NCBI GenBank assembly: GCA_002691645.1
Contig: NZIP01000061.1
Span: 36,112 to 73,822 of the forward strand
Source of the DNA: Flavobacteriaceae bacterium
Lineage (GTDB): Bacteria; Bacteroidota; Bacteroidia; Flavobacteriales; Flavobacteriaceae
Direction of reading: 5' to 3'
Length of the DNA: 37,711 nucleotides
In this document: one piece after another, positions 1,477 to 36,654 of the stretch
Layout of the letters: every line of letters begins with the position of its first letter
Position numbering within the stretch: the stretch's first letter is position 1
Notes under the pieces: model-generated
Seen by the model: the letters and a program-made list of their open reading frames with translations, nothing else
What the model was told of the DNA's origin: nothing
The model's database searches: none
Program-made: the position numbers and the translations under genes

Positions 1477-2520
1477 TTGAAAATAAATCAATTCATATCG
1501 CTCAAGAATTACAACAGCTTTCAATTAAATGCCCAAAGCCACCATTTCGTCGAACTCCACGAAAGAAGTGATTTTAAAAAACTTTTAGACAAGCACGGAG
1601 GTCAATCGATTTTTACTCTTGGCGGAGGCAGTAATATCTTATTAGTCGAAAAAGAAATTAGTGTTTTAATTGCCCATATCAATACAAAAGGAATACAAAC
1701 AGTCAATGAATCAGATCGAAATGTACAGGTAAAGATTGAGGCAGGTGAAATTTGGGATGATGTTGTTCAATGGACTGTCGAAAGAGGGTACGGAGGAATT
1801 GAAAACCTCACCCTTATTCCTGGCAAGATTGGTGCTGCACCTATTCAAAACATTGGTGCTTACGGAGTTGAACTAAAAGATACTCTTATAGCTTGTGAAT
1901 TTATTGATAAAAGTACCGGTGAGTTAAGAGAGGTTGACAATGCCTTTTGTCAATTTGGATATCGCGATTCAATTTTTAAAAATGAATTGAGGAATAAAGT
2001 AATCATTACCGCAATAACGCTAAACTTGAGTAAAGACGGTTTTCACCAGTATAACACCTCATATGGGGCTATCTCAAATCATCTTCTTGAAAATTTTAGC
2101 AATGAAATAAACCTCACTACCATTCGTGAAACGGTGCGACAAATACGAACATCAAAGCTTCCAGATCCCAAAATCATTGGTAATAGCGGAAGTTTTTTCA
2201 AAAACCCTATTGTAAGTCAACAGCAATTAAAGCACATTCAAGAGCAGTTTCCAGATGTAGTGCATTTTCCCGTGGATAAAGACAAGGTTAAAATAGCCGC
2301 AGGATGGATGATTGAAAAACTCGACGGAAAAAAATGGACAGTTGGTGGAGCTGGAGTTCATCACAAACAGGCTTTGGTTTTAATCAATAAAAAGAATGCC
2401 ACTGGAATGGATCTATTAGAACTTTCAAAGCGTATTCAATCTAATGTTTTTGAACACTTTGGTGTCCACCTAGAAACTGAGGTCAATATAATTGATCATA
2501 AATACACCTGTCAACTTTGA
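1477..2520 (+). CDS. murB: UDP-N-acetylenolpyruvoylglucosamine reductase MurB (TTG start)
   Basis: MurB reduces UDP-GlcNAc-enolpyruvate to UDP-MurNAc with NADPH and FAD, the second step of peptidoglycan precursor synthesis in the cytoplasm. The 347 residues match the longer E. coli-type (type I) MurB. FAD-binding parts are LGGGSNIL near 48-55 and the IPGKIGAAPIQNIGAYG stretch near 114-130. Catalytic positions appear as the arginine of GYRDSIFK (Arg163), the serine of GNSGSFFKNP (Ser239) and a glutamate in HLETEV near 333-335. The start is a TTG at 1477, 2 bp after the previous stop; no ATG lies near and the protein N-terminus fits the family. The stop overlaps the next gene's start. Confidence 0.95.
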   Translation: MKINQFISLKNYNSFQLNAQSHHFVELHERSDFKKLLDKHGGQSIFTLGGGSNILLVEKEISVLIAHINTKGIQTVNESDRNVQVKIEAGEIWDDVVQWTVERGYGGIENLTLIPGKIGAAPIQNIGAYGVELKDTLIACEFIDKSTGELREVDNAFCQFGYRDSIFKNELRNKVIITAITLNLSKDGFHQYNTSYGAISNHLLENFSNEINLTTIRETVRQIRTSKLPDPKIIGNSGSFFKNPIVSQQQLKHIQEQFPDVVHFPVDKDKVKIAAGWMIEKLDGKKWTVGGAGVHHKQALVLINKKNATGMDLLELSKRIQSNVFEHFGVHLETEVNIIDHKYTCQL

Positions 2521-3065
2521 GTCGCACCTATTCTATTGATGAACAAATTATACATCTTCTAAAAGGTAGAGATGAAGACGCTTTGAGGTTAATTTACTAT
2601 CATTATTCGAGTCATCTCAAAGGAATTGCATTTCAAATTGTTCAACAGGATTCCCTTGCTGATGACATTGTACAAGAAAGTATGGTAAAGATTTGGAATA
2701 AATCGGATTCATACGACCCTAAAAAAGCGAAGTTCTTTACTTGGATTTATCAAATTACCAGAAATACGGCTTTAGATAAACTGCGACAAAGAGAAAATAA
2801 TTTCTCACAAAAAATCCAAATGGAGAAATCAAACGTATCAGTTGTAGAGGAATCTTTTTCAGGAGAGCATATAGATATTCAAAAACACATCTCCCAATTA
2901 GGTCAAAAGTATCAAGAGGTTATCGAGCTGTTGTACTTCAAAGGTTTTACCCAAAGTCAAGCAAGTGAACTATTGAACATTCCTCTGGGTACTGTTAAAT
3001 CAAGATTGAAAATTGGTTTAAGAGAACTAAAGAAAATTTACGATTACAAAAGAAAATTAAACTAA
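2517..3065 (+). CDS. ECF RNA polymerase sigma factor (sigma-70 family, RskA-partnered)
   Basis: A 182-residue ECF-type sigma factor. Region 2 spans about residues 20-95, with DIVQESMVKIW and FFTWIYQITRNTALDKLRQRE; region 4 spans about 120-175, with the helix-turn-helix FTQSQASELLNIPLGTVKSRL. There is no region 3 or 1.1, as expected for ECF factors. The start is a TTG at 2517 that overlaps murB's TGA in a TTGA junction. The next gene, starting directly after its TAA, encodes a membrane-bound RskA-like anti-sigma factor, so this sigma is probably held at the membrane and released by an unknown signal. This pair resembles the SigK/RskA arrangement, but the target genes cannot be inferred. Confidence 0.92.
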   Translation: MSRTYSIDEQIIHLLKGRDEDALRLIYYHYSSHLKGIAFQIVQQDSLADDIVQESMVKIWNKSDSYDPKKAKFFTWIYQITRNTALDKLRQRENNFSQKIQMEKSNVSVVEESFSGEHIDIQKHISQLGQKYQEVIELLYFKGFTQSQASELLNIPLGTVKSRLKIGLRELKKIYDYKRKLN

Positions 3066-3863
3066 ATGAGTGCATTAGACCCCAAACTTGATAAAACTCA
3101 GCAAGATGAATTTCACAAGGCATTGTTTGATTGTAATCGAGATGAATTGAATTCCTCTAAGATAGACGAATTGGTTTCAAGCCATCCGGAATTGCAAAAA
3201 AATTATGACGACTATCAAGAGGCCCTTAAACTTCTGGTAAGCTCTAAAGCTATACCTTGTGACCCACGACTATTAGAGGGTACACTTAGTGCCATAAAAT
3301 CCAAGCAAGCTTTCAATTTCGAAAAATTTATGCAGTACGCAGCTGCTTCAATATCAGTGTTTTTGGGAGTTTTATGTTTTCGATTATACCAGAATAATTT
3401 GGAATTAAAAGCAGAACAAGCTCTTGTTCAGTCTCAAATAGTGAATTTAGAAGAAGACGTTAATGTACAACTGGAAGATTTAAGAAATGAATATATCGTG
3501 CTGAACAGTCCTTATACGATAAAAAAAATGATCACAGGAAATTCAAGGGCAAAGCAGTTCAAAGCGGTTGCGTATATTAATCCTATTAAAAAATTGTCAT
3601 ATATCAATGTTCAAAATCTTCCTCAACTTACTGCAGACAAATGCTATCAAATTTGGACGGAAGTAAACGGTGGATTGGTTAGTCTCGGAGTGTTAAAAAA
3701 CCTTGAGGATCCCAAAAAAATGTTGAGAATGCCCTATGCTGAAAATGCACTAAGTTTTATCACTATTGAAGATGAAGGTGGTAATTTCACACCCAACCTA
3801 ATCGATCAAGTCGCCAAAATTTCCTATCAAAATATAATTGCGTCTGATAAAGTATCTTTGTAA
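3066..3863 (+). CDS. RskA-like anti-sigma factor, single-span membrane protein
   Basis: A 265-residue protein with a cytoplasmic N-terminal part (1-85), one hydrophobic span at about 88-106, a short coiled coil at 109-142 and a periplasmic C-terminal domain at about 150-260. The C-terminal domain has the anti-sigma-K (RskA) layout, with VAYINPIKKLSYINVQNLP followed by CYQIWTEVNGG and LGVL. The N-terminal part should bind the sigma factor encoded just upstream; the ATG directly follows that gene's stop. It has Cys23 and Cys65 but no CHCC zinc motif of the ZAS type. Regulated proteolysis is known for RskA but not shown here. Confidence 0.82.
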   Translation: MSALDPKLDKTQQDEFHKALFDCNRDELNSSKIDELVSSHPELQKNYDDYQEALKLLVSSKAIPCDPRLLEGTLSAIKSKQAFNFEKFMQYAAASISVFLGVLCFRLYQNNLELKAEQALVQSQIVNLEEDVNVQLEDLRNEYIVLNSPYTIKKMITGNSRAKQFKAVAYINPIKKLSYINVQNLPQLTADKCYQIWTEVNGGLVSLGVLKNLEDPKKMLRMPYAENALSFITIEDEGGNFTPNLIDQVAKISYQNIIASDKVSL

Positions 3864-3871
3864 AAAAAAGA

Positions 3872-4075
3872 ATGGAAATTATTCTTCTAACCATCGGGCT
3901 ACTCTTACTTGGTTTTGCAGGCATTTCTATAAAACTCTGGGCAAATAAAGATGGCGAGTTTGCCGGTACTTGTGCCTCGCAAAGTCCTTTTTTAAATACT
4001 GAAGGTGAAACCTGTAGTCTTTGTGGAAAAGTACCTTCGAAAGACTGTCAAAATCAGACAATAGACCCGGCTTGA
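3872..4075 (+). CDS. Small single-span four-cysteine membrane protein, candidate NqrM-like factor
   Basis: A 67-residue protein with one strongly hydrophobic N-terminal helix (about 2-22) and a short hydrophilic tail that holds exactly four cysteines: Cys34 in GTCAS, Cys48 and Cys51 in CSLCG, and Cys59. Flavobacterial relatives are often annotated only as membrane or secreted protein. The layout matches NqrM (DUF539), the Na+-NQR maturation factor, which has one helix, four cysteines and an essential Cys33 in Vibrio harveyi. A full nqr-apbE operon lies at 29-37 kb of this window without an nqrM after apbE. The NqrM assignment is an inference from layout; the motifs between cysteines differ from the proteobacterial form. 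It lies between anti-sigma and second sigma genes. Confidence 0.8.
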   Translation: MEIILLTIGLLLLGFAGISIKLWANKDGEFAGTCASQSPFLNTEGETCSLCGKVPSKDCQNQTIDPA

Positions 4076-4611
4076 ATTACCAAGACATTATACCTCTAGC
4101 CCAACAAGGCGATCAAACCGCTTTTCAACATTTATTTGATGAGCATTGGAATTACCTGCACAATTTTCATGCGCAGAAAGAAATGTCTGATGACGAAATT
4201 GAAGACCTGTGTATAGAAACTTTTTCTAAAGCCTTTGAAAAAATAGACAGTTTTAATTTGGATTACAATTTTAAAACTTGGTTGGTTTCCATTTCGAAAA
4301 ACTTGTACATAGATCAAAAAAGAAAAAAGTCAATTGACCAAAGTACATCTCAGTTTAATGCGTCTGTGGAATATCCTGATGAGACACCCTCAATAGAAGA
4401 TCAGCTCATTGAAAAACAACGTCTTAAAGATTTGAGACAAATGATAAAAGAACTTAAACCACAATACAAAAATATTCTTATTCTTAGGTATTTTGAAGAA
4501 TTGACTTATGCTGAAATTGCACAACGCACAAATATTTCTCTGAGCAATGCTAAAGTTTTGGTGATGAGAGCACGAAAAAAGTTGTCTGAAAAAATTGAGA
4601 ATAAGCCGTAA
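4072..4611 (+). CDS. Second ECF RNA polymerase sigma factor
   Basis: A sigma-70 family ECF factor of 179 residues when started at the TTG at 4072, which overlaps the previous stop as TTGA, like the first sigma gene here. A TTG at 4021 would add 17 residues but would overlap the small cysteine protein by 55 bp, so 4072 is preferred. Region 2 includes EIEDLCIETFSKAFEKI and FKTWLVSISKNLYIDQKRKK; region 4 includes ILRYFEELTYAEIAQRTNISLSNAKVLVMRARKKL with a clear helix-turn-helix. No anti-sigma gene follows, since lipA comes next. It may act without a partner or share the upstream anti-sigma. Its regulon is unknown. Confidence 0.88.
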   Translation: MNYQDIIPLAQQGDQTAFQHLFDEHWNYLHNFHAQKEMSDDEIEDLCIETFSKAFEKIDSFNLDYNFKTWLVSISKNLYIDQKRKKSIDQSTSQFNASVEYPDETPSIEDQLIEKQRLKDLRQMIKELKPQYKNILILRYFEELTYAEIAQRTNISLSNAKVLVMRARKKLSEKIENKP

Positions 4612-28403: not shown

Positions 28404-29189
28404 ATGTTCGAAAGGTTCGTAAAAAAAATTTTAAACAGCTTACCTAGACCCCTTTTGATTAAAATTAGTTTAGGGTTTAGACCTTTTATTGCCTTATTTT
28501 ACGCAGGATCTGCCTATAAAGACCCCATAGACCAAAGAAGCTATCGCAAGTTCTTACCCTATGGTTATAAAAAAATTCGAGAAGGTGTGCTCGCCCCAGG
28601 AACCTTTTCTCTTGAAAGACATCGCTTTCTGTGGTTGTTTTTAAAGGCGAAGACTTCATTTTTTGATGACTCTAGGCCTATCAAGTTATTGCATATGGCA
28701 CCAGAACAAGCTTTTTACAAACGATTTAAGCGCCTTTCACACATCGACTACACCAGCTGTGATTTGGATTCTCCTATTGCCGAAGTTCATGCGGATATCT
28801 GTGATTTACCTTTTGAAAACAATTACTTTGACGTGATTTTGTGCAATCATGTGCTCGAGCATATTAAAAACGATCAAGACGCGCTTACTGAATTGTACCG
28901 CGTATTAAAACCTGGAGGATGGGGAATATTTCAAGTTCCCATTGACTATAGTCGCAGCAAGACCTTTGAAGATGATTCTATCGTAGATAAAGAAAAAAGA
29001 ACAGCCATTTTTGGACAGTACGATCACCTGCGCATTTATGGAATGGATTTTTTCAATCAGCTTGAAAAACACGATTTTCAAGTTCAAAAAATCACCGTGA
29101 AAGAACTCTACACTAAAGAAGAAATCGAAAGGTATAGACTAGATGAGACTGAAATTCTGCCTTTGGTTCAAAAATCAATCAATCAGTAA
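28404..29189 (+). CDS. Class I SAM-dependent methyltransferase
   Basis: A 261-residue protein with a Methyltransf_11-like domain. An N-terminal helical part (1-90) is followed by LLHMAPEQAF (motif I variant), TSCDLDSP, the acidic ADICDLPFENNYFDVILCNHVLEHI and YRVLKPGGWGIFQVP. Relatives in Flavobacteria often lie in glycan or cell-envelope contexts, but the substrate here is unknown. It starts 3 bp after map and overlaps apbE at the 3' end by 15 bp. Confidence 0.86.
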   Translation: MFERFVKKILNSLPRPLLIKISLGFRPFIALFYAGSAYKDPIDQRSYRKFLPYGYKKIREGVLAPGTFSLERHRFLWLFLKAKTSFFDDSRPIKLLHMAPEQAFYKRFKRLSHIDYTSCDLDSPIAEVHADICDLPFENNYFDVILCNHVLEHIKNDQDALTELYRVLKPGGWGIFQVPIDYSRSKTFEDDSIVDKEKRTAIFGQYDHLRIYGMDFFNQLEKHDFQVQKITVKELYTKEEIERYRLDETEILPLVQKSINQ

Positions 29190-30170
29190 GGCCTCAAATT
29201 CTGGAGAAAACCACTCTTTGATTTCTCCTTGTTCGTCACTGTAAATGATGTAAGCCCATAAATCAGAACGACCTTTTAAAATAGCTAGTGACTTTGGCAA
29301 GTCCATCACCATGAAGGAAGTCGCCCAAGCATCAGCAGTAGCGCAGTCATCCGCTATCACAGAAGTTGCTAAAACATTAGATATTTTGGTCTCACCTTTA
29401 AAAGGGTCTATAGTGTGCACATATTTGTTGCCCTTTTCATCCAATCTAAATTTTCGGTAATTACCTGAGGAAGCCATCGCCTTATCGCTAAACTGAATTT
29501 TTTGTTTGAGCACACGTTCTTCAAAGCGCTGTGGATCGTCAATTCCAACAGTCCAAGCTCGCAACGAATCAAGGTTTTGTCCTTTAGCTACGATTTCACC
29601 GCCTAATTCGATTAAATAATTAGCACCCTCTGTATGAGTTAGATAAGAGGCAATTAAATCTAAGGTGTAACCTTTAGCAATGGCATTAAAATCAAATTGT
29701 GTATTAGAATTCGCTTTTAACAGCATATTTTGTTCCAAGGATAGTTTATCAAATCCAACGAATTGTAAAAGACTATCTCGCAGCTCATCTGTCACCTCTA
29801 CTGCCTCTTCTGCTCCAAATCCGTAAGCATTGACAAGTATACCCACAGTGGGGTCAAAATATCCGTCGGTTTCTTTGTGTATTTGTTCCGCTAGGGTAAA
29901 TACTTTTTTGAATTGATCATCGACAACCACATTTTCTTCACCTCTATTGATTCGACTAATCAAAGAATTAGGCCTGTAGGTCGACATTGAATTATTCGCG
30001 GATTCCACAATGGAATCTACGGCGAATTGCAAAGCAGATGGTTGGATATTACAATCGTAACAAACAATTCCATAGGTAGTTCCTAAGGCGCTGCCTTGTA
30101 TGCGAATCACATCGTTCTTTGGGCTGCAAGAAATCCCGAGAAATAACGCAATTACTATAAGCTTTCTCAT
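29175..30170 (-). CDS. apbE: FAD:protein FMN transferase ApbE
   Basis: ApbE attaches FMN through a phosphodiester bond to threonines of NqrB and NqrC, using FAD. The 331-residue protein has a lipoprotein signal (lipobox GISC, Cys15), so it acts in the periplasm at the membrane. Family motifs are STYRPNSLISRINRGE, FDFNAIAKGYTLDLIASYL, LIELGGEIVAKG with WTVGIDDP, and DCATADAWATSFMVM with the magnesium-binding aspartates. It is the last gene of the nqr operon and overlaps the 122-residue gene by 4 bp as ATGA. The target threonines are present in NqrB and NqrC encoded upstream. No nqrM gene follows it. Confidence 0.95.
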   Translation of the reverse strand: MRKLIVIALFLGISCSPKNDVIRIQGSALGTTYGIVCYDCNIQPSALQFAVDSIVESANNSMSTYRPNSLISRINRGEENVVVDDQFKKVFTLAEQIHKETDGYFDPTVGILVNAYGFGAEEAVEVTDELRDSLLQFVGFDKLSLEQNMLLKANSNTQFDFNAIAKGYTLDLIASYLTHTEGANYLIELGGEIVAKGQNLDSLRAWTVGIDDPQRFEERVLKQKIQFSDKAMASSGNYRKFRLDEKGNKYVHTIDPFKGETKISNVLATSVIADDCATADAWATSFMVMDLPKSLAILKGRSDLWAYIIYSDEQGEIKEWFSPEFEALLID

Positions 30171-30535
30171 AAGAATTCTTGAATGGGAATCATCCCCTTA
30201 AAATTAATTTCATAGGGCTGGTCTAACAAAACTGCCTCCGCCTTGTCTTCAACGTTATAGAGTCCCACTCCGGCATAATAAGACATGGCCTCGAATTTCT
30301 CCGCATGGTCTTTTACTTTGGTGAGGAGCTTGAGATCTGGTGCAAGAGGATCCTCGGGATAGGGAACTGCCCGCACGACGATAAAGTGTGTTTTTTTCTC
30401 TTTAAGACAAACAAACTGTGGGTTTTTCTTGGGTTTAGAATTGACTGCTAAAAACTCAAATCCATTGCGCTCAAGTTCCTTACCCACAATATTCATGGCC
30501 AAGTTGTGTAACTCTTGTTCGGTTAATTTTCGCAC
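30167..30535 (-). CDS. Conserved hypothetical protein between nqrF and apbE
   Basis: A 122-residue soluble protein without signal peptide or membrane span. Stretches such as ELERNGFEFLAVNSK, NPQFVCLKEKKTHFIVVRAV and MSYYAGVGLYN suggest an alternating alpha/beta fold; the first two loosely resemble the strand order of PD-(D/E)xK nuclease-like proteins, but with the catalytic residues missing. I recall similar proteins at this place in other Flavobacteria, sometimes misnamed as an NqrF subunit, but this is not NqrF. It starts 34 bp after nqrF and overlaps apbE by 4 bp as ATGA. A role in Na+-NQR assembly or control is an inference from position. Confidence 0.78.
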   Translation of the reverse strand: MRKLTEQELHNLAMNIVGKELERNGFEFLAVNSKPKKNPQFVCLKEKKTHFIVVRAVPYPEDPLAPDLKLLTKVKDHAEKFEAMSYYAGVGLYNVEDKAEAVLLDQPYEINFKGMIPIQEFL

Positions 30536-30569
30536 TCTTATCTTCTAAAATCCGATTCCTATGACGGGC

Positions 30570-31877
30570 TTATCCCCCGAAATCATCAAATCGAATATGC
30601 TCGTCTGGAATACCGAAATCTTCTCCCATTTTCTGAACAGCCTGGTTCATAAGTGGAGGTCCACAGAAATACAATTCAATATCTTCTGGACTTTCGTGAT
30701 CGTTGAGATAGTTATCGATTACACAGTTGTGAATGAACCCAACGAATCCATCTCCATCTGTATCATTGATGTCTTTTTTCACTTTCCAGTTATCTTCCTC
30801 TTGAGGCTCAGAGAGTGCCAAATAAAATTTGAAATTTGGGAATTCCTTTTCTAAGGCTCTAAAGTGTTCAAGGTAGAACAATTCTCTTTTTGAACGACCT
30901 CCATACCAATAGGTTACTTTTCTGTTGGTTTTCAAGGTTTTGAAAAGATGATATAAGTGAGAGCGCATTGGTGCCATTCCTGCACCACCTCCTACATAAA
31001 GCATTTCAGATTCTGATTCATTGATGAAGAATTCACCAAAAGGACCAGATATCGTTACCCCATCACCTGGTTTGAGTCCAAAAATATACGATGACGCAAC
31101 TCCAGGATTTACATCCATCCAATCGCCTTTAGCACGATCGAAAGGAGGAGTCGCAATTCTCACATTTAACATAATTTCTCTTCCTTCCGCAGGAAAAGAG
31201 GCCATAGAGTATGCACGCTCGACGAGTTCGGTATTTTTCATCACCAAAGGCCAAAGCTTGAACTTATCCCATTCGGCTTTAAATTTCATCGGTGTTTCAT
31301 GCTCCTTTGGATGAGCTGTGATATCCATATCAGCATAGCGCACCTCACAAGGTGGAATTTCGATTTGAATATACCCTCCGGCTTTGTAATTCATTTCCTC
31401 AGGAATCTCAACTACAAATTCTTTGATGAATGAGGCTACATTGTAATTACGCACCACCTTAGCTTGCCATTTTTTGATTCCAAAAACCTCTTCAGGAATG
31501 GTGATTTCCATGTCCTGCTTAACCTTTACTTGACAGGCTAAACGCGCACCGCCTTGTAACTCTTTTTTAGAAAAATGCGGTGTTTCAGTCGGAAGTGCTT
31601 CTCCTCCACCATCTAAAACATGACATTCACATTGAATGCACGATCCACCACCTCCGCAAGCCGAAGGCAAAAAGATTTTTTGATTTCCTAGAGTTGTCAA
31701 AAGTGAATCTCCTGAGGCTACTTCGATTTCTCGCTCACCGTTGAGAAGAATTTTAACCGGCCCTGACGGCGCTAATTTTTCTTTCGTAAATAACAACAAG
31801 GCAACCAACGCTAAAATTAACGTCAAAAATGCTGCCACTGTAATTGCTATTGTACCACCTATTGCTGCTAAAGTCAT
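30570..31877 (-). CDS. nqrF: Na+-translocating NADH:quinone oxidoreductase subunit F
   Basis: NqrF is the NADH-oxidising subunit that passes electrons from FAD to a 2Fe-2S cluster. The 435 residues contain one N-terminal membrane span (about 8-30), the ferredoxin-like domain with Cys74, Cys80, Cys83 and Cys115 in ACGGGGSCIQCEC and ARLACQ, the FAD-binding RAYSMAS near 231-237, and NADH-binding GGGAGMAPMRSHL with a late CGPPLMN. The protein ends with DDFGG. Its spacing to nqrE is 10 bp. It is about 28 residues longer than the Vibrio protein, as is common in Bacteroidota. Confidence 0.97.
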   Translation of the reverse strand: MTLAAIGGTIAITVAAFLTLILALVALLLFTKEKLAPSGPVKILLNGEREIEVASGDSLLTTLGNQKIFLPSACGGGGSCIQCECHVLDGGGEALPTETPHFSKKELQGGARLACQVKVKQDMEITIPEEVFGIKKWQAKVVRNYNVASFIKEFVVEIPEEMNYKAGGYIQIEIPPCEVRYADMDITAHPKEHETPMKFKAEWDKFKLWPLVMKNTELVERAYSMASFPAEGREIMLNVRIATPPFDRAKGDWMDVNPGVASSYIFGLKPGDGVTISGPFGEFFINESESEMLYVGGGAGMAPMRSHLYHLFKTLKTNRKVTYWYGGRSKRELFYLEHFRALEKEFPNFKFYLALSEPQEEDNWKVKKDINDTDGDGFVGFIHNCVIDNYLNDHESPEDIELYFCGPPLMNQAVQKMGEDFGIPDEHIRFDDFGG

Positions 31878-31887
31878 TTGAACGTTA

Positions 31888-32646
31888 TTAAGGATTTAGT
31901 ACTAAGTCTTTGTTTGTTTCTTCAGTCTCTTGGTCTTTTTCGGTCTCAGTTTGATCCTGAGTCAGTTCTTTGAGGTCTACTGGAGCAATTGTCTCAACAA
32001 CCTCTTCAGCTGCTGGTGGTTCATTATCTCCTGTGAGCATTCCTCCAAAACTTTGGAAACCAATTCCCATGAGTCCTGTAATGATAAAAGTGATTCCCAA
32101 ACCTCGTAAGGGCGCAGGAACGGCTGAATATCTAATTTTCTCTCTAATCGCTGCGATTGCTAGGATTGCTAAAAACCATCCAATACCCGAAGAGAAACCG
32201 TAATTTAAGGCCAGTGCAAAGCTTGAAATTTCACGAGCCTGCATAAAAAGTGAACCCCCTAAAATAGCACAGTTCACCGCTATTAATGGTAAAAAGATTC
32301 CCAGTGAGTTATACAGGGCTGGAGAAAATTTTTCTACCACAATTTCTACCAATTGAACCATAGTCGCGATGGTCGCGATAAATAAAATAAAGGACAAAAA
32401 GCTTAGGTCATAATCTGCAAATTCAGGTCCTAACCAAGTCAAAGCCCCTTCTTGAAGAATGTATTGGTCTAAAAGCCAGTTTAAGGGAACCGTCACTGTT
32501 AAGACAAAAATAACAGCTGCTCCTAAACCTACCGCAGTCGCTACTTTTTTAGAAACGGCTAAATAAGAGCACATCCCTAAAAACACAGCGAATACCATGT
32601 TGTCAATAAAGATCGATTTGAAAAATAATTCTAAGTGTTCTAACAT
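31888..32646 (-). CDS. nqrE: Na+-translocating NADH:quinone oxidoreductase subunit E, with acidic tail
   Basis: NqrE is a six-span membrane subunit that, with NqrD, holds an intramembrane iron centre. Cys26 in [12 protein letters not shown] and Cys126 in VNCAILGG match the iron ligands. Spans are seen from about 14 to 200. The protein is 252 residues long, about 50 longer than the usual 198-205. The extra part is a hydrophilic, acidic C-terminal tail (about 208-252: [12 protein letters not shown], then [13 protein letters not shown]), with strong Glu, Thr and Asp bias and no known domain. It probably hangs in the cytoplasm or periplasm and is not part of the core fold. Confidence 0.95.
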
Positions 32647-32658
32647 AACTGCTCTGTT

Positions 32659-33306
32659 TTAGGCCTCTTCAATTAATGATTTGTTCTGTGCGCGTTGAAT
32701 CCATATTAAAACCCCAACGACAATAAGAGCAGCTGGAGGAATAATCATAAAACCATTGTTTTCGTAACCAAAGGCGTATAAACCGGTTTTAGCAATAGGA
32801 TCTCCCAAGACAGGAATACCGAATAAGGTTCCTGAACCCAATAATTCTCTCAAAAACCCAACGATAATTAATATGATTCCGTAACCAAAAGCATTTCCGA
32901 TACCGTCTAAAAAAGAACGCCATGGGCCATTACCTAATGCAAAGGCTTCAAAGCGTCCCATGATGATACAGTTGGTAATTATCAGTCCCACGAAAACCGA
33001 TAAGGTCTTGCTGAGTTCGTAGGCAAATGCTTTTAACACTTGGTCTACAATAATCACCAAAGCAGCAATTACGATAAGTTGTACGATAATTCTAATTTTT
33101 GATGGAATGAGGTTTCTCAGTAAAGAGATGACTACATTACCAAGACCCATTACAAATAAAACCGAAATAGACATAACCACAGAAGCTTTGAGCTCTGCAG
33201 TAATGGCTAGTGCAGAACAGATTCCCAATACCTGAATGGTAATAGGGTTATTGTCCGCGAGAGGGTCTAGTATTAGGTTTGCGTCTTTTTTTGATAGTAG
33301 TGCCAT
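32659..33306 (-). CDS. nqrD: Na+-translocating NADH:quinone oxidoreductase subunit D
   Basis: A 215-residue, six-span integral subunit related to NqrE and arranged in opposite membrane orientation to it. Cys30 in LGICSALAI and Cys113 in TNCIIMGRFEAFALG are the two ligands that, with the pair from NqrE, complete the (Cys)4[Fe] centre between NqrD and NqrE. The stretch GNGPWRSFLDGIGNAFGYG near 124-142 is highly typical. It lies 1 bp after nqrC and 12 bp before nqrE on the minus strand. Length and ligands are standard. Confidence 0.97.
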   Translation of the reverse strand: MALLSKKDANLILDPLADNNPITIQVLGICSALAITAELKASVVMSISVLFVMGLGNVVISLLRNLIPSKIRIIVQLIVIAALVIIVDQVLKAFAYELSKTLSVFVGLIITNCIIMGRFEAFALGNGPWRSFLDGIGNAFGYGIILIIVGFLRELLGSGTLFGIPVLGDPIAKTGLYAFGYENNGFMIIPPAALIVVGVLIWIQRAQNKSLIEEA

Positions 33307-33307
33307 A

Positions 33308-34057
33308 CTAATTGGTCATTATTGATTGTAAAAAAGGTTGATAGAGTTTTACACTTTCTTTGATCATGTCTGATACTCCATTACCTGTTATGGTTGCCCC
33401 TGCTAAAGCATCTACTTCAGCATCGGATTTGTCTTCGTTAAGGGGATCATTATTTCCTTTGACAACACTCACTCCTCCAAACTTTCCATTTGGAGCAATA
33501 GATTCGCCAATAAAATCATCCATGAAATAACGCAATTTGATATTAGCGCCTAGTCCTGGTGTTTCTGCTTTGTGGTCAAAATAAACTCCCTTGATAATCA
33601 TTTGTTCATCAACAGCCATATAACCCCAAATGGCATCCCAAAGCCCCTTTCCATACATCGGTATGATGTAGTATTTCTGATTGTCATTGCTTCCAATAAA
33701 AAGTGGTAGGCTCGACTTATCTCCTTTTTTGATTTTAGTGATTTCTTTTTTCAGATCAATGAGATATGCTTCTTCTTGAGCTTTGATTTCTCCACCTGTA
33801 AGCACGTATTGACCTTCTATGGTGTTTTTAAAAATAGATTCAACTTCTGTGGTAGGGATGAAATTAACTGAGGAATCATCTTGATTGCGATTAACACCCA
33901 TGGCGTAAAGAATATTTTGCTGTTTTTCAAAACGCTCATTCTCTTTGATTTTAGATTTTAAACCCGTGGCCATTAATGCCAAAAGTGATCCTACAACCGC
34001 AACCATGACGACAGCAAAAATGATGGTGTATGAATTCTTTTCAGTATTGATTGACAT
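33308..34057 (-). CDS. nqrC: Na+-translocating NADH:quinone oxidoreductase subunit C
   Basis: NqrC carries covalent FMN in a periplasmic domain held by one N-terminal membrane span (about 11-31). The 249 residues contain the flavinylation motif DALAGATIT near 216-224; Thr222 is the likely FMN attachment site, modified by ApbE from the same operon. The motif has Ala instead of the common Ser before GAT, which other ApbE targets tolerate. ETPGLGANI near 165-173 is the conserved FMN-binding part. It follows nqrB after 2 bp. Confidence 0.96.
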   Translation of the reverse strand: MSINTEKNSYTIIFAVVMVAVVGSLLALMATGLKSKIKENERFEKQQNILYAMGVNRNQDDSSVNFIPTTEVESIFKNTIEGQYVLTGGEIKAQEEAYLIDLKKEITKIKKGDKSSLPLFIGSNDNQKYYIIPMYGKGLWDAIWGYMAVDEQMIIKGVYFDHKAETPGLGANIKLRYFMDDFIGESIAPNGKFGGVSVVKGNNDPLNEDKSDAEVDALAGATITGNGVSDMIKESVKLYQPFLQSIMTN

Positions 34058-34059
34058 GA

Positions 34060-35298
34060 TTAGGCGTTTTGAGTGTTAAAATTTGAGTTGGCTTGTGCAA
34101 GTGAAGCTCTTTTCATTCTTCTCTTTACATTGGCTTGAACTACATAGTGATCGATTGTTGGCGCAAAAACGTTCATCAATAAGATGGCGAGGAATACACC
34201 CTCAGGGTATCCTGGATTGAAAACGCGTATCATTACAGAGATAAATCCAATTAAAAATCCGTAAATCCACTTTCCTCTGTTGGTTTGTGCCGCAGTAACT
34301 GGATCGGTTGCCATAAAGACAATACCAAAGGCCAATCCACCCACGATTAAATGTTTCCAGTAATCAAAGGCCATTAGACTGTAAAATTTACTGTAAGAAC
34401 CTATCCATCCAAAATCGACAACAGCATTAAAAATTAGTCCCATAGCTAAAGCTCCAAGCACGCCACTTAACATAATTCTCCAACTTCCAATTTTTGCGAA
34501 GATTAAAAACAATCCTCCCAATAGGATCAAAAATGTAGAGGTCTCTCCGACAGATCCAGGAATAAATCCATAAAACATATCAGAAAGTGAATAGGCGTAT
34601 TCATCTGTTCTATTTTGAGCGAGATAACCGAGAACAGTTTCTCCTGAGATGGCGTCTGTACTATTTGCTTTGGTGACTCCGTTTACCCCATCGTGCACCC
34701 AAACTTTATCTCCACTCATCCAAGTTGGATAGGCGAAAAACAAAAAGGCTCTAATGGTTAAGGCTGGATTCAAGATATTCATCCCTGTTCCTCCAAAAAC
34801 TTCCTTTCCGATAACCACACCGAAAATAACGGCGATGGCAAGCATCCATAATGGGGTGTCAATTGGCACAATTAAGGGAACTAGCATTCCCGTAACTAAG
34901 TAACCCTCCTCAACTTCATGTCCTTTAATAACGGCGAAAACAAATTCAACTGCTAATCCTACTCCATATGAAACAATTAAAAGCGGGAGTACCGTGGTGA
35001 TTCCCAACATGAAATTTTCCCAGTTGATGAAGTGTTCAAAAAGTGAAAATGATTCTGGAAAACCATTAACAGCGCTGTAATGCTGATATCCTGCGTTAAA
35101 TATTCCAAAAAGTAAACAAGGAACAAGCGATAAAATTACTGTGTTCATCGTTCTTTTCAAATCGTCTACTGCCTTTACATGTGTCCCTTTATGGGTTACC
35201 TCATTCGGCGTGTATAAAAAAGTGTGTATCGCATTAAATGCTGGGGCCCACTTATTGCCCTTAATTTTTTCTTTGTAATTGTGTAATGCCTGTTTCAT
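34060..35298 (-). CDS. nqrB: Na+-translocating NADH:quinone oxidoreductase subunit B
   Basis: NqrB is the largest membrane subunit and forms the Na+ path; it binds covalent FMN and riboflavin. The 412 residues have about ten spans after a cytoplasmic N-terminal part. FIPGSVGETSTFLIL near 245-259 holds the FMN threonine, probably Thr253 in the GETS stretch. GKEVFGGTGMNILNPALTIRAF near 164-185 is another hallmark. The gene lies 3 bp after nqrA and 2 bp before nqrC on the minus strand. Length and motifs are normal. Confidence 0.97.
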   Translation of the reverse strand: MKQALHNYKEKIKGNKWAPAFNAIHTFLYTPNEVTHKGTHVKAVDDLKRTMNTVILSLVPCLLFGIFNAGYQHYSAVNGFPESFSLFEHFINWENFMLGITTVLPLLIVSYGVGLAVEFVFAVIKGHEVEEGYLVTGMLVPLIVPIDTPLWMLAIAVIFGVVIGKEVFGGTGMNILNPALTIRAFLFFAYPTWMSGDKVWVHDGVNGVTKANSTDAISGETVLGYLAQNRTDEYAYSLSDMFYGFIPGSVGETSTFLILLGGLFLIFAKIGSWRIMLSGVLGALAMGLIFNAVVDFGWIGSYSKFYSLMAFDYWKHLIVGGLAFGIVFMATDPVTAAQTNRGKWIYGFLIGFISVMIRVFNPGYPEGVFLAILLMNVFAPTIDHYVVQANVKRRMKRASLAQANSNFNTQNA

Positions 35299-35301
35299 GC
35301 T

Positions 35302-36654
35302 TTATCCAATTTCTTTGAGTAATAGATCTAATCCTTCTCTAATAATTTGTTGATGCGGTTGTTTTGAGATGCAAATAAACTCTGTCAAGGCAAAGTCTTC
35401 GGGAGCAACCTCATACAAACCTAACTGTTCCATTTCGTCTAAATCTTTGACCATACAAGCCTTGAGCAATTGCATTGGATAGATGTCTAGCGGAAAGACT
35501 TTTTCATAACTTCCCGTTACCACAAATGCCCTGTGTTCACCATTTGTATTGGTGGTCAAATCGTATTTTTTCTTAGGGGTCAACCACGAAAAGGTAAATG
35601 CCCTAGTGCTTGAAATTTTATCAAAAACGGGTTTATTCCAACCAAAAAACTCATAGTCGTCACCTTCTGGAATAGCCGTAATCTGAGTGGAGTAGAATCC
35701 AATGGCTCCATCCAATTCTGAGGTGTAACCTGTTAGGACATCACCATTGATTAAACGGTGATTGCCTTCTTTTAATCCACAGCTCTCAATAGCATTTTCT
35801 AAAGAGGCACCATAAGTAGTTCTCACGTACATAGGCTCATTGATTGAAGACCCTGTTACGGCGACAATGCGCTCTGGGTTATATTTTCCGTCAAGAAGTA
35901 ACTCTCCTATAATCAGAAGGTCTTGTGCTCCAATGGTCCACACCACCTCTCCTTTGTTAATAGGATCGATATGTCCGATTTGAGTACCGACGAGTCCTGC
36001 AGGATGAGGACCAGATACCGCGTGTAAATCAATATTTTTAATCGCTTCAAAAACTGAACCTTCTTTATTTGGAACTGAAACATGAACCTTTCCAGGTGTC
36101 AAAATATTAAGCGCATCAATGGCCGCTTGCATTTTTTCTTCATTCCCTTTGAGTATATATTGTAAGTCTGGCTGCAAAGGACCAGAATTGAAAGCTGAAA
36201 TAAATACGGCCTTGGGATTTTGGTCCGGTCTAGCAATTACGTCATACGGTCTTTGTTTGATGTAAGGCCAACATCCAGATTTCAATAAATGTTTTTTTAC
36301 GTCTTCTGTGTTTTTACCAGAAAAGTCAAACGCCTTGTGATCGACACAATTATTTTTACCGTCCGATTTGATCGAGATATTGAGCACTCTTCTGCGCGCT
36401 CCTCTTTCAATTTCAGTGATGGTGCCACTTACCGGTGAAACGAAAAGTATTTCTTCATTGTTTTTGTCGAAAAAAAGAGGTTCACCTTTAGAAACTTGAC
36501 CGTTTTCTTTGTGAATTAATTTTGGAGTTAACCCGTGAAAATCATCTAATCTCACCTTAAAGGTATTACTGTCTTTGGCGTTTTCTGTACGCATTTCAGC
36601 CTCTCCTTTTAATGAAATAGACAATCCTTTCTTGATACGAATGTCTTTAGACAT
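35302..36654 (-). CDS. nqrA: Na+-translocating NADH:quinone oxidoreductase subunit A
   Basis: A 450-residue soluble, cytoplasmic subunit that contributes to ubiquinone or menaquinone binding next to NqrB. Typical parts are IKKGLSISLKGEAE at the N-terminus, FVSPVSGTITEIERGARRRVL near 70-90 (a biotinyl-like domain), HPAGLVGTQIGHIDPINKGEVVWTIGAQDL near 217-246 and VTGSSINEPMYVRTTYGAS. It is the first gene of the operon, with a good promoter 37 bp upstream. The organism therefore probably couples NADH oxidation to a sodium gradient, common in marine Flavobacteria. Confidence 0.97.
   Translation of the reverse strand: MSKDIRIKKGLSISLKGEAEMRTENAKDSNTFKVRLDDFHGLTPKLIHKENGQVSKGEPLFFDKNNEEILFVSPVSGTITEIERGARRRVLNISIKSDGKNNCVDHKAFDFSGKNTEDVKKHLLKSGCWPYIKQRPYDVIARPDQNPKAVFISAFNSGPLQPDLQYILKGNEEKMQAAIDALNILTPGKVHVSVPNKEGSVFEAIKNIDLHAVSGPHPAGLVGTQIGHIDPINKGEVVWTIGAQDLLIIGELLLDGKYNPERIVAVTGSSINEPMYVRTTYGASLENAIESCGLKEGNHRLINGDVLTGYTSELDGAIGFYSTQITAIPEGDDYEFFGWNKPVFDKISSTRAFTFSWLTPKKKYDLTTNTNGEHRAFVVTGSYEKVFPLDIYPMQLLKACMVKDLDEMEQLGLYEVAPEDFALTEFICISKQPHQQIIREGLDLLLKEIG

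Follow-up and report, generated by a model that had tools for sequence, protein, structure and literature searches.

The 67-residue protein encoded at positions 3872 to 4075 (plus strand) of the window, by which is meant the whole 37,711-nucleotide stretch of Flavobacteriaceae DNA analyzed here, is very probably (about 0.92 by our estimate) the Bacteroidota counterpart of NqrM, the maturation factor of the sodium-pumping respiratory enzyme Na+-NQR, and is homologous to, though diverged from, the DUF539 family of proteobacteria. This identification, which the first-pass annotation had put forward as a candidate, is supported by the co-occurrence of the gene with Na+-NQR, its neighborhood beside apbE in relatives, sequence homology detected by HMM searches in both directions, the alignment of its cysteines, and the intact iron ligands of its presumed target. 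To our knowledge, proteobacteria are the only group in which NqrM has been established as the second factor for NQR maturation, and Kostyrko et al. in 2016 are said to have found it to be needed for NQR maturation. The role of NqrM in this process has been summarized (PMC12174285, PMC6209661).

Results

The nqrM-like gene and its product

The translation of the gene, MEIILLTIGLLLLGFAGISIKLWANKDGEFAGTCASQSPFLNTEGETCSLCGKVPSKDCQNQTIDPA*, and an AlphaFold model in which one helix (residues 2 to 27, pLDDT >90) is followed by a disordered tail agree with the first-pass description of a 67-residue protein with a single N-terminal, putatively transmembrane helix, exactly four cysteines (residues 34, 48, 51, and 59), and a GTCAS motif (residues 32 to 36). 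The codon of Cys34, within the motif, is at 3971 to 3973, the Cys48-x-x-Cys51 pair is at 4013 to 4024, and the codon of Cys59 is at 4046 to 4048, all on the plus strand. In a 25-member alignment of the Bacteroidota family to which the protein belongs (the GTCAS family; the alignment and its profile are called A1), the invariant columns include G32-T33-C34-A35, C48, C51, and G52, and C59, the fourth conserved cysteine, is nearly invariant (at least 90% of members). A close relative is 90% identical and more distant members are 38 to 69% identical. Judging from this conservation, the ORF is a real gene and not a chance ORF, because it has a 90%-identical close relative and the family is present in 52 of the 59 genomes of the order sample described below. 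Scans of Pfam and NCBIfam gave no significant match, and the family is unnamed in both.

The gene order in this part of the window is aminotransferase, murB, ECF sigma, RskA-type anti-sigma, the nqrM-like gene, a second ECF sigma, lipA, and gap. The nqrM-like gene is thus flanked by two ECF sigma genes and an RskA-type anti-sigma gene (2517 to 3863 and 4021 to 4611), and the nqrM-like stop codon overlaps what may be the TTG start codon of the second of these sigma genes.

The nqr operon of the window

A complete nqrABCDEF-orf122-apbE operon was found on the minus strand at 29175 to 36654, consisting of nqrA (35302 to 36654), nqrB (34060 to 35298), nqrC (33308 to 34057), nqrD (32659 to 33306), nqrE (31888 to 32646), nqrF (30570 to 31877), orf122, and the flavin transferase gene apbE (29175 to 30170). 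The four NqrD/NqrE iron ligands that the first-pass annotation had reported are intact, in that C30 and C113 of NqrD and C26 and C126 of NqrE align with the ligand cysteines of Yersinia and Klebsiella. The absence of nqrM behind apbE was likewise confirmed: the operon ends at apbE, and the genome contains no PF04400 (NqrM) protein. The gene orf122 (122 aa, 30167 to 30535, minus strand), between nqrF and apbE, has no Pfam or NCBIfam match; a homologue occupies the same position in two other loci (L157 and L158), and it perhaps encodes an NQR-associated protein of Flavobacteriaceae.

Co-occurrence with Na+-NQR

The distribution of the GTCAS family was compared with that of nqrA, called by TIGR01936, in an order sample of 59 genomes, and with that of nqrA matches above the cut-off in a phylum sample of 198 Bacteroidota genomes spread evenly over the phylum. 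In the order sample nqrA was found in 53 genomes, and the family was present in 52 of these 53 and in none of the 6 genomes lacking nqrA. The sole nqrA-positive genome without the gene (G006) is an assembly of 82% completeness in which the nqrA contig stops at 56.6 kb, short of the expected site at about 67 kb. In the phylum sample nqrA was found in 43 genomes, and the family was present in 36 of these and in none of the 155 others, so that all 36 carriers are nqrA-positive (Fisher p 7e-33, relatedness ignored). The family was also absent from genomes having only a sub-cut-off NqrA match, of the kind that the related RNF complex would give. The expectation in the first-pass annotation that the family would not be widespread in genomes without nqr therefore held in both samples. 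The co-occurrence is not wholly explained by relatedness, because in a single genus (g46) both genes occur together in two genomes and are both missing from seven, and neither nqrA nor the GTCAS family is found in four families of the order, f4, f5, f9, and f16.

A search of the 198 phylum-sample genomes for PF04400 yielded no proteins, and so neither the genome of the window nor any of these genomes has a normal DUF539 protein alongside, in line with the first-pass annotation. This search was validated with positive controls: an NqrM-like query written from general knowledge fetched 18 NqrM-type loci, and a PF04400 protein was found in 7 of the 8 genomes that were then scanned. Therefore, the absence of PF04400 from Bacteroidota is meaningful. 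Among 200 Pseudomonadota genomes, PF04400 and nqrA were found in the identical 32 genomes.

Gene neighborhoods in relatives

The first-pass annotation had suggested looking for homologues beside apbE, and such linkage was found in nine family-level lineages, with most Flavobacteriaceae not among them. In these lineages the gene either adjoins apbE, where nqrABCDEF-apbE ends, or is transcribed divergently from nqrA; in the window itself it has neither position. At one locus (L136) the nqrM-like gene follows apbE by 46 bp on the same strand, the classic nqrM position. At others (L029-L031, L033-L035, L037, L134, L135, and L137-L139) it adjoins apbE convergently, with nqrA on another contig in the case of L037, and at L028 it is divergent from nqrA. 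The other neighbor is often murB (L030, L031, L034, and L035), and loci of the Flavobacteriaceae type (L040-L042, L044, L046, and L159) retain the murB side with nqr elsewhere. The description of the gene as far from the nqr operon is therefore correct for this genome, where it is about 25 kb from apbE, but does not apply to the family, which adjoins the nqr operon in many relatives. Because the murB side is kept in Flavobacteriaceae-type genomes with nqr elsewhere, this distance is best read as a local rearrangement that parted apbE from nqrM-murB. Within g46, genome G210 (L137) has a compact nqr-apbE-nqrM cluster and genome G141 (L157, L159) has the split arrangement, which suggests a separate acquisition of the whole cluster.

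Homology with proteobacterial NqrM

PF04400, at its gathering cut-off of 22 bits and with E values up to 1 considered, matched neither the window protein nor any of the 25 A1 members. More sensitive comparisons nonetheless connect the two families. When the A1 profile was run over the 200 Pseudomonadota genomes, the single match (E 9.4e-5) was a PF04400 protein encoded directly after apbE. An HMM built from 25 NqrMs, ranked over a pool of 3,346 ORFs with sets that include the few intermediates, matched all 73 unique GTCAS members at E <5 and 65 of them at E <0.01 (best 6.2e-8), with the window protein at E 0.004 and the first unrelated ORF at 0.44. In the reverse direction, the GTCAS HMM matched 23 NqrMs at E <0.01 (best 3e-7), and no unrelated ORF fell below 0.17. 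An hhalign comparison of A1 with the NqrM alignment (A2) gave a probability of 94 and a score of 33.5, compared to 32.9 for the best of 200 architecture-preserving permutations (which keep the helix and the tail composition), none of which exceeded it. Because permuted profiles score nearly as high, the hhalign E-values were discounted and the homology rests on the HMM ranking; pairwise profile similarity alone would not settle the relationship. With that qualification, the kinship with DUF539 for which the first-pass annotation had recommended profile comparison was recovered.

In the alignment Cys34 corresponds to the first conserved cysteine of NqrM (GSCGG), Cys33 in V. harveyi, and the Cys48-x-x-Cys51 pair corresponds to the CDC or CxxC pair. 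Cys33 is reported to be the essential cysteine of V. harveyi NqrM, its replacement abolishing activity and that of the other cysteines lowering it. Intermediates of the form GSC...CxxC...C are found among Pseudomonas-type and Sphingomonadales NqrMs (L125, L126, and L096).

Two further observations were made on NqrM-like genes outside Bacteroidota. In Sphingomonadales-type NQR loci (L141, L142, and L096), apbE and a CxxC-type NqrM gene lie divergently upstream of nqrA, and the NqrA of two sampled genomes of this type scores 458 to 465 bits, as low as most Bacteroidota. A GSCGG-type NqrM-like protein of 65 to 66 aa that PF04400 misses is encoded right after apbE (L097:8998-9195) in an Acidobacteriota MAG (Ca. 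Sulfomarinibacter).

A CCGGG form in the seven exceptional genomes

The seven nqrA-positive genomes of the phylum sample without the GTCAS family all belong to one family (f29, which appears to be Bacteroidales-like). It was found that their nqr operons encode a protein of 68 to 75 aa in which CCGGG[HN]C...C comes after a helix, the gene lying directly after apbE in six genomes and after nqrF in one (L129-L133, L160, and L161). A profile of five members matched in exactly these 7 genomes, with no match in the remaining 191. The CCGGG form has a modest profile match to NqrM (top HMM E 0.004). Direct homology with the GTCAS family found no support, as there was no convincing profile match and 38 of 200 permutations scored as well.

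All NQR genomes sampled in the two phyla (the 43 nqrA-positive Bacteroidota of the phylum sample and the 32 Pseudomonadota) thus have one NqrM-type protein. It is conceivable, although we hold this only tentatively and at less than even confidence, that Na+-NQR is everywhere accompanied by a dedicated protein of the NqrM type, of which there would be three forms or more: GSCGG with CDC or CxxC in Pseudomonadota, GTCAS with CxxC in most Bacteroidota, and the His/Cys-rich CCGGGxC...C in f29, the last possibly a non-homologous replacement, in which case the iron-loading step would have been reinvented. Comparison of the three forms suggests that the essentials of iron loading are one helix, a cysteine just behind it, and further thiols.

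Discussion

An identity with CcoS/FixS, the maturation proteins of cbb3 cytochrome oxidase, has to be considered because these were the only weak database matches of the window protein (FixS, E=0.096; ccoS, E=0.088), and no ccoS match was found in the genome of the window itself. These matches fall below the respective cut-offs (12.5 vs 28.35 bits for TIGR00847 and 12.9 vs 23.1 bits for PF03597) and are limited to the hydrophobic helix and the next few residues, with the four-cysteine tail outside. The distribution contradicts such an identity: a separate genuine ccoS is present in 137 of the 198 phylum-sample genomes, many of them without nqr or the GTCAS family, as well as in most GTCAS carriers (G070, G086, G110, G141, G145, and others), and the GTCAS family tracks nqrA and not ccoS. 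We therefore regard this explanation as having a negligible chance of being right.

The remaining alternatives accept the link to NQR. Instead of delivering metal, the protein could serve Na+-NQR as an accessory subunit or as a small regulator, or could be a partner of ApbE in flavinylation, since co-occurrence and apbE linkage by themselves are silent on function and the gene can lie beside apbE with nqrA elsewhere (L037). This seems very improbable in view of the homology to a maturation factor and the four conserved cysteines, and we know of no extra subunit of such a kind from the Vibrio NQR structures. Alternatively, the GTCAS family might be unrelated to NqrM by descent, with a membrane helix and four cysteines having converged on the same job. 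The failure of PF04400 to detect the family and a profile-profile score barely above the best permuted null would fit such convergence, but the reciprocal HMM matches, the Pseudomonadota intermediates, and the position after apbE common to both families argue for descent, and we consider convergence improbable.

On the preferred reading, that the protein is an NqrM, its single helix would anchor it in the membrane and, by the positive-inside rule, its four-cysteine tail would face the cytoplasm. By analogy with NqrM, Cys34, Cys48, Cys51, and Cys59 of the tail may bind either iron or an iron-sulfur unit, which the tail would then hand to the intramembrane center formed by two cysteines each from NqrD and NqrE; without the protein, the NqrD/NqrE core should not assemble.

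Bacteroidota, which have been proposed as the origin of NQR (PMC4014512), had appeared to lack NqrM, and the missing factor can now probably be named. No Bacteroidota NqrM was described in the literature searched, which excluded the original reports on NqrM (Kostyrko 2016, Agarwal 2020), and papers on the NQR of Prevotella and Bacteroides do not mention a maturation factor under the terms searched. The GTCAS family would thus be a form of NqrM beyond PF04400 that is new relative to the literature searched. Naming the factor would open flavobacterial and Bacteroides-type NQR to heterologous production and genetic dissection, and annotators could label an unnamed small protein across a large part of the phylum.

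Comparison with known systems

The protein resembles CcoS/FixS in being a small single-helix membrane protein with weak similarity in the helix, whereas its profile match stops before the cysteine tail, and ccoS is a separate gene that most of the same genomes also have and that is distributed differently. The CCGGG form shares with it the single N-terminal helix, a Cys-rich tail, and an nqrA-bound occurrence, but has CCGGGxC...HSC with histidines and no CxxC. The closest likeness is to NqrM, which is also of 64 to 86 aa with a single N-terminal helix and G[ST]C just after it, has four conserved cysteines arranged as C..C-x(1-2)-C..C, is encoded beside apbE, and is present only with nqr. Relative to NqrM, the Bacteroidota form has GTCAS in place of GSCGG, has an extra residue separating the helix from the motif (KDGEF vs KxI), has CxxCG as in Pseudomonas-type NqrM and not CDC, lacks the charged C-terminal extension, and escapes PF04400, and in Flavobacteriaceae its gene has moved away from nqr.
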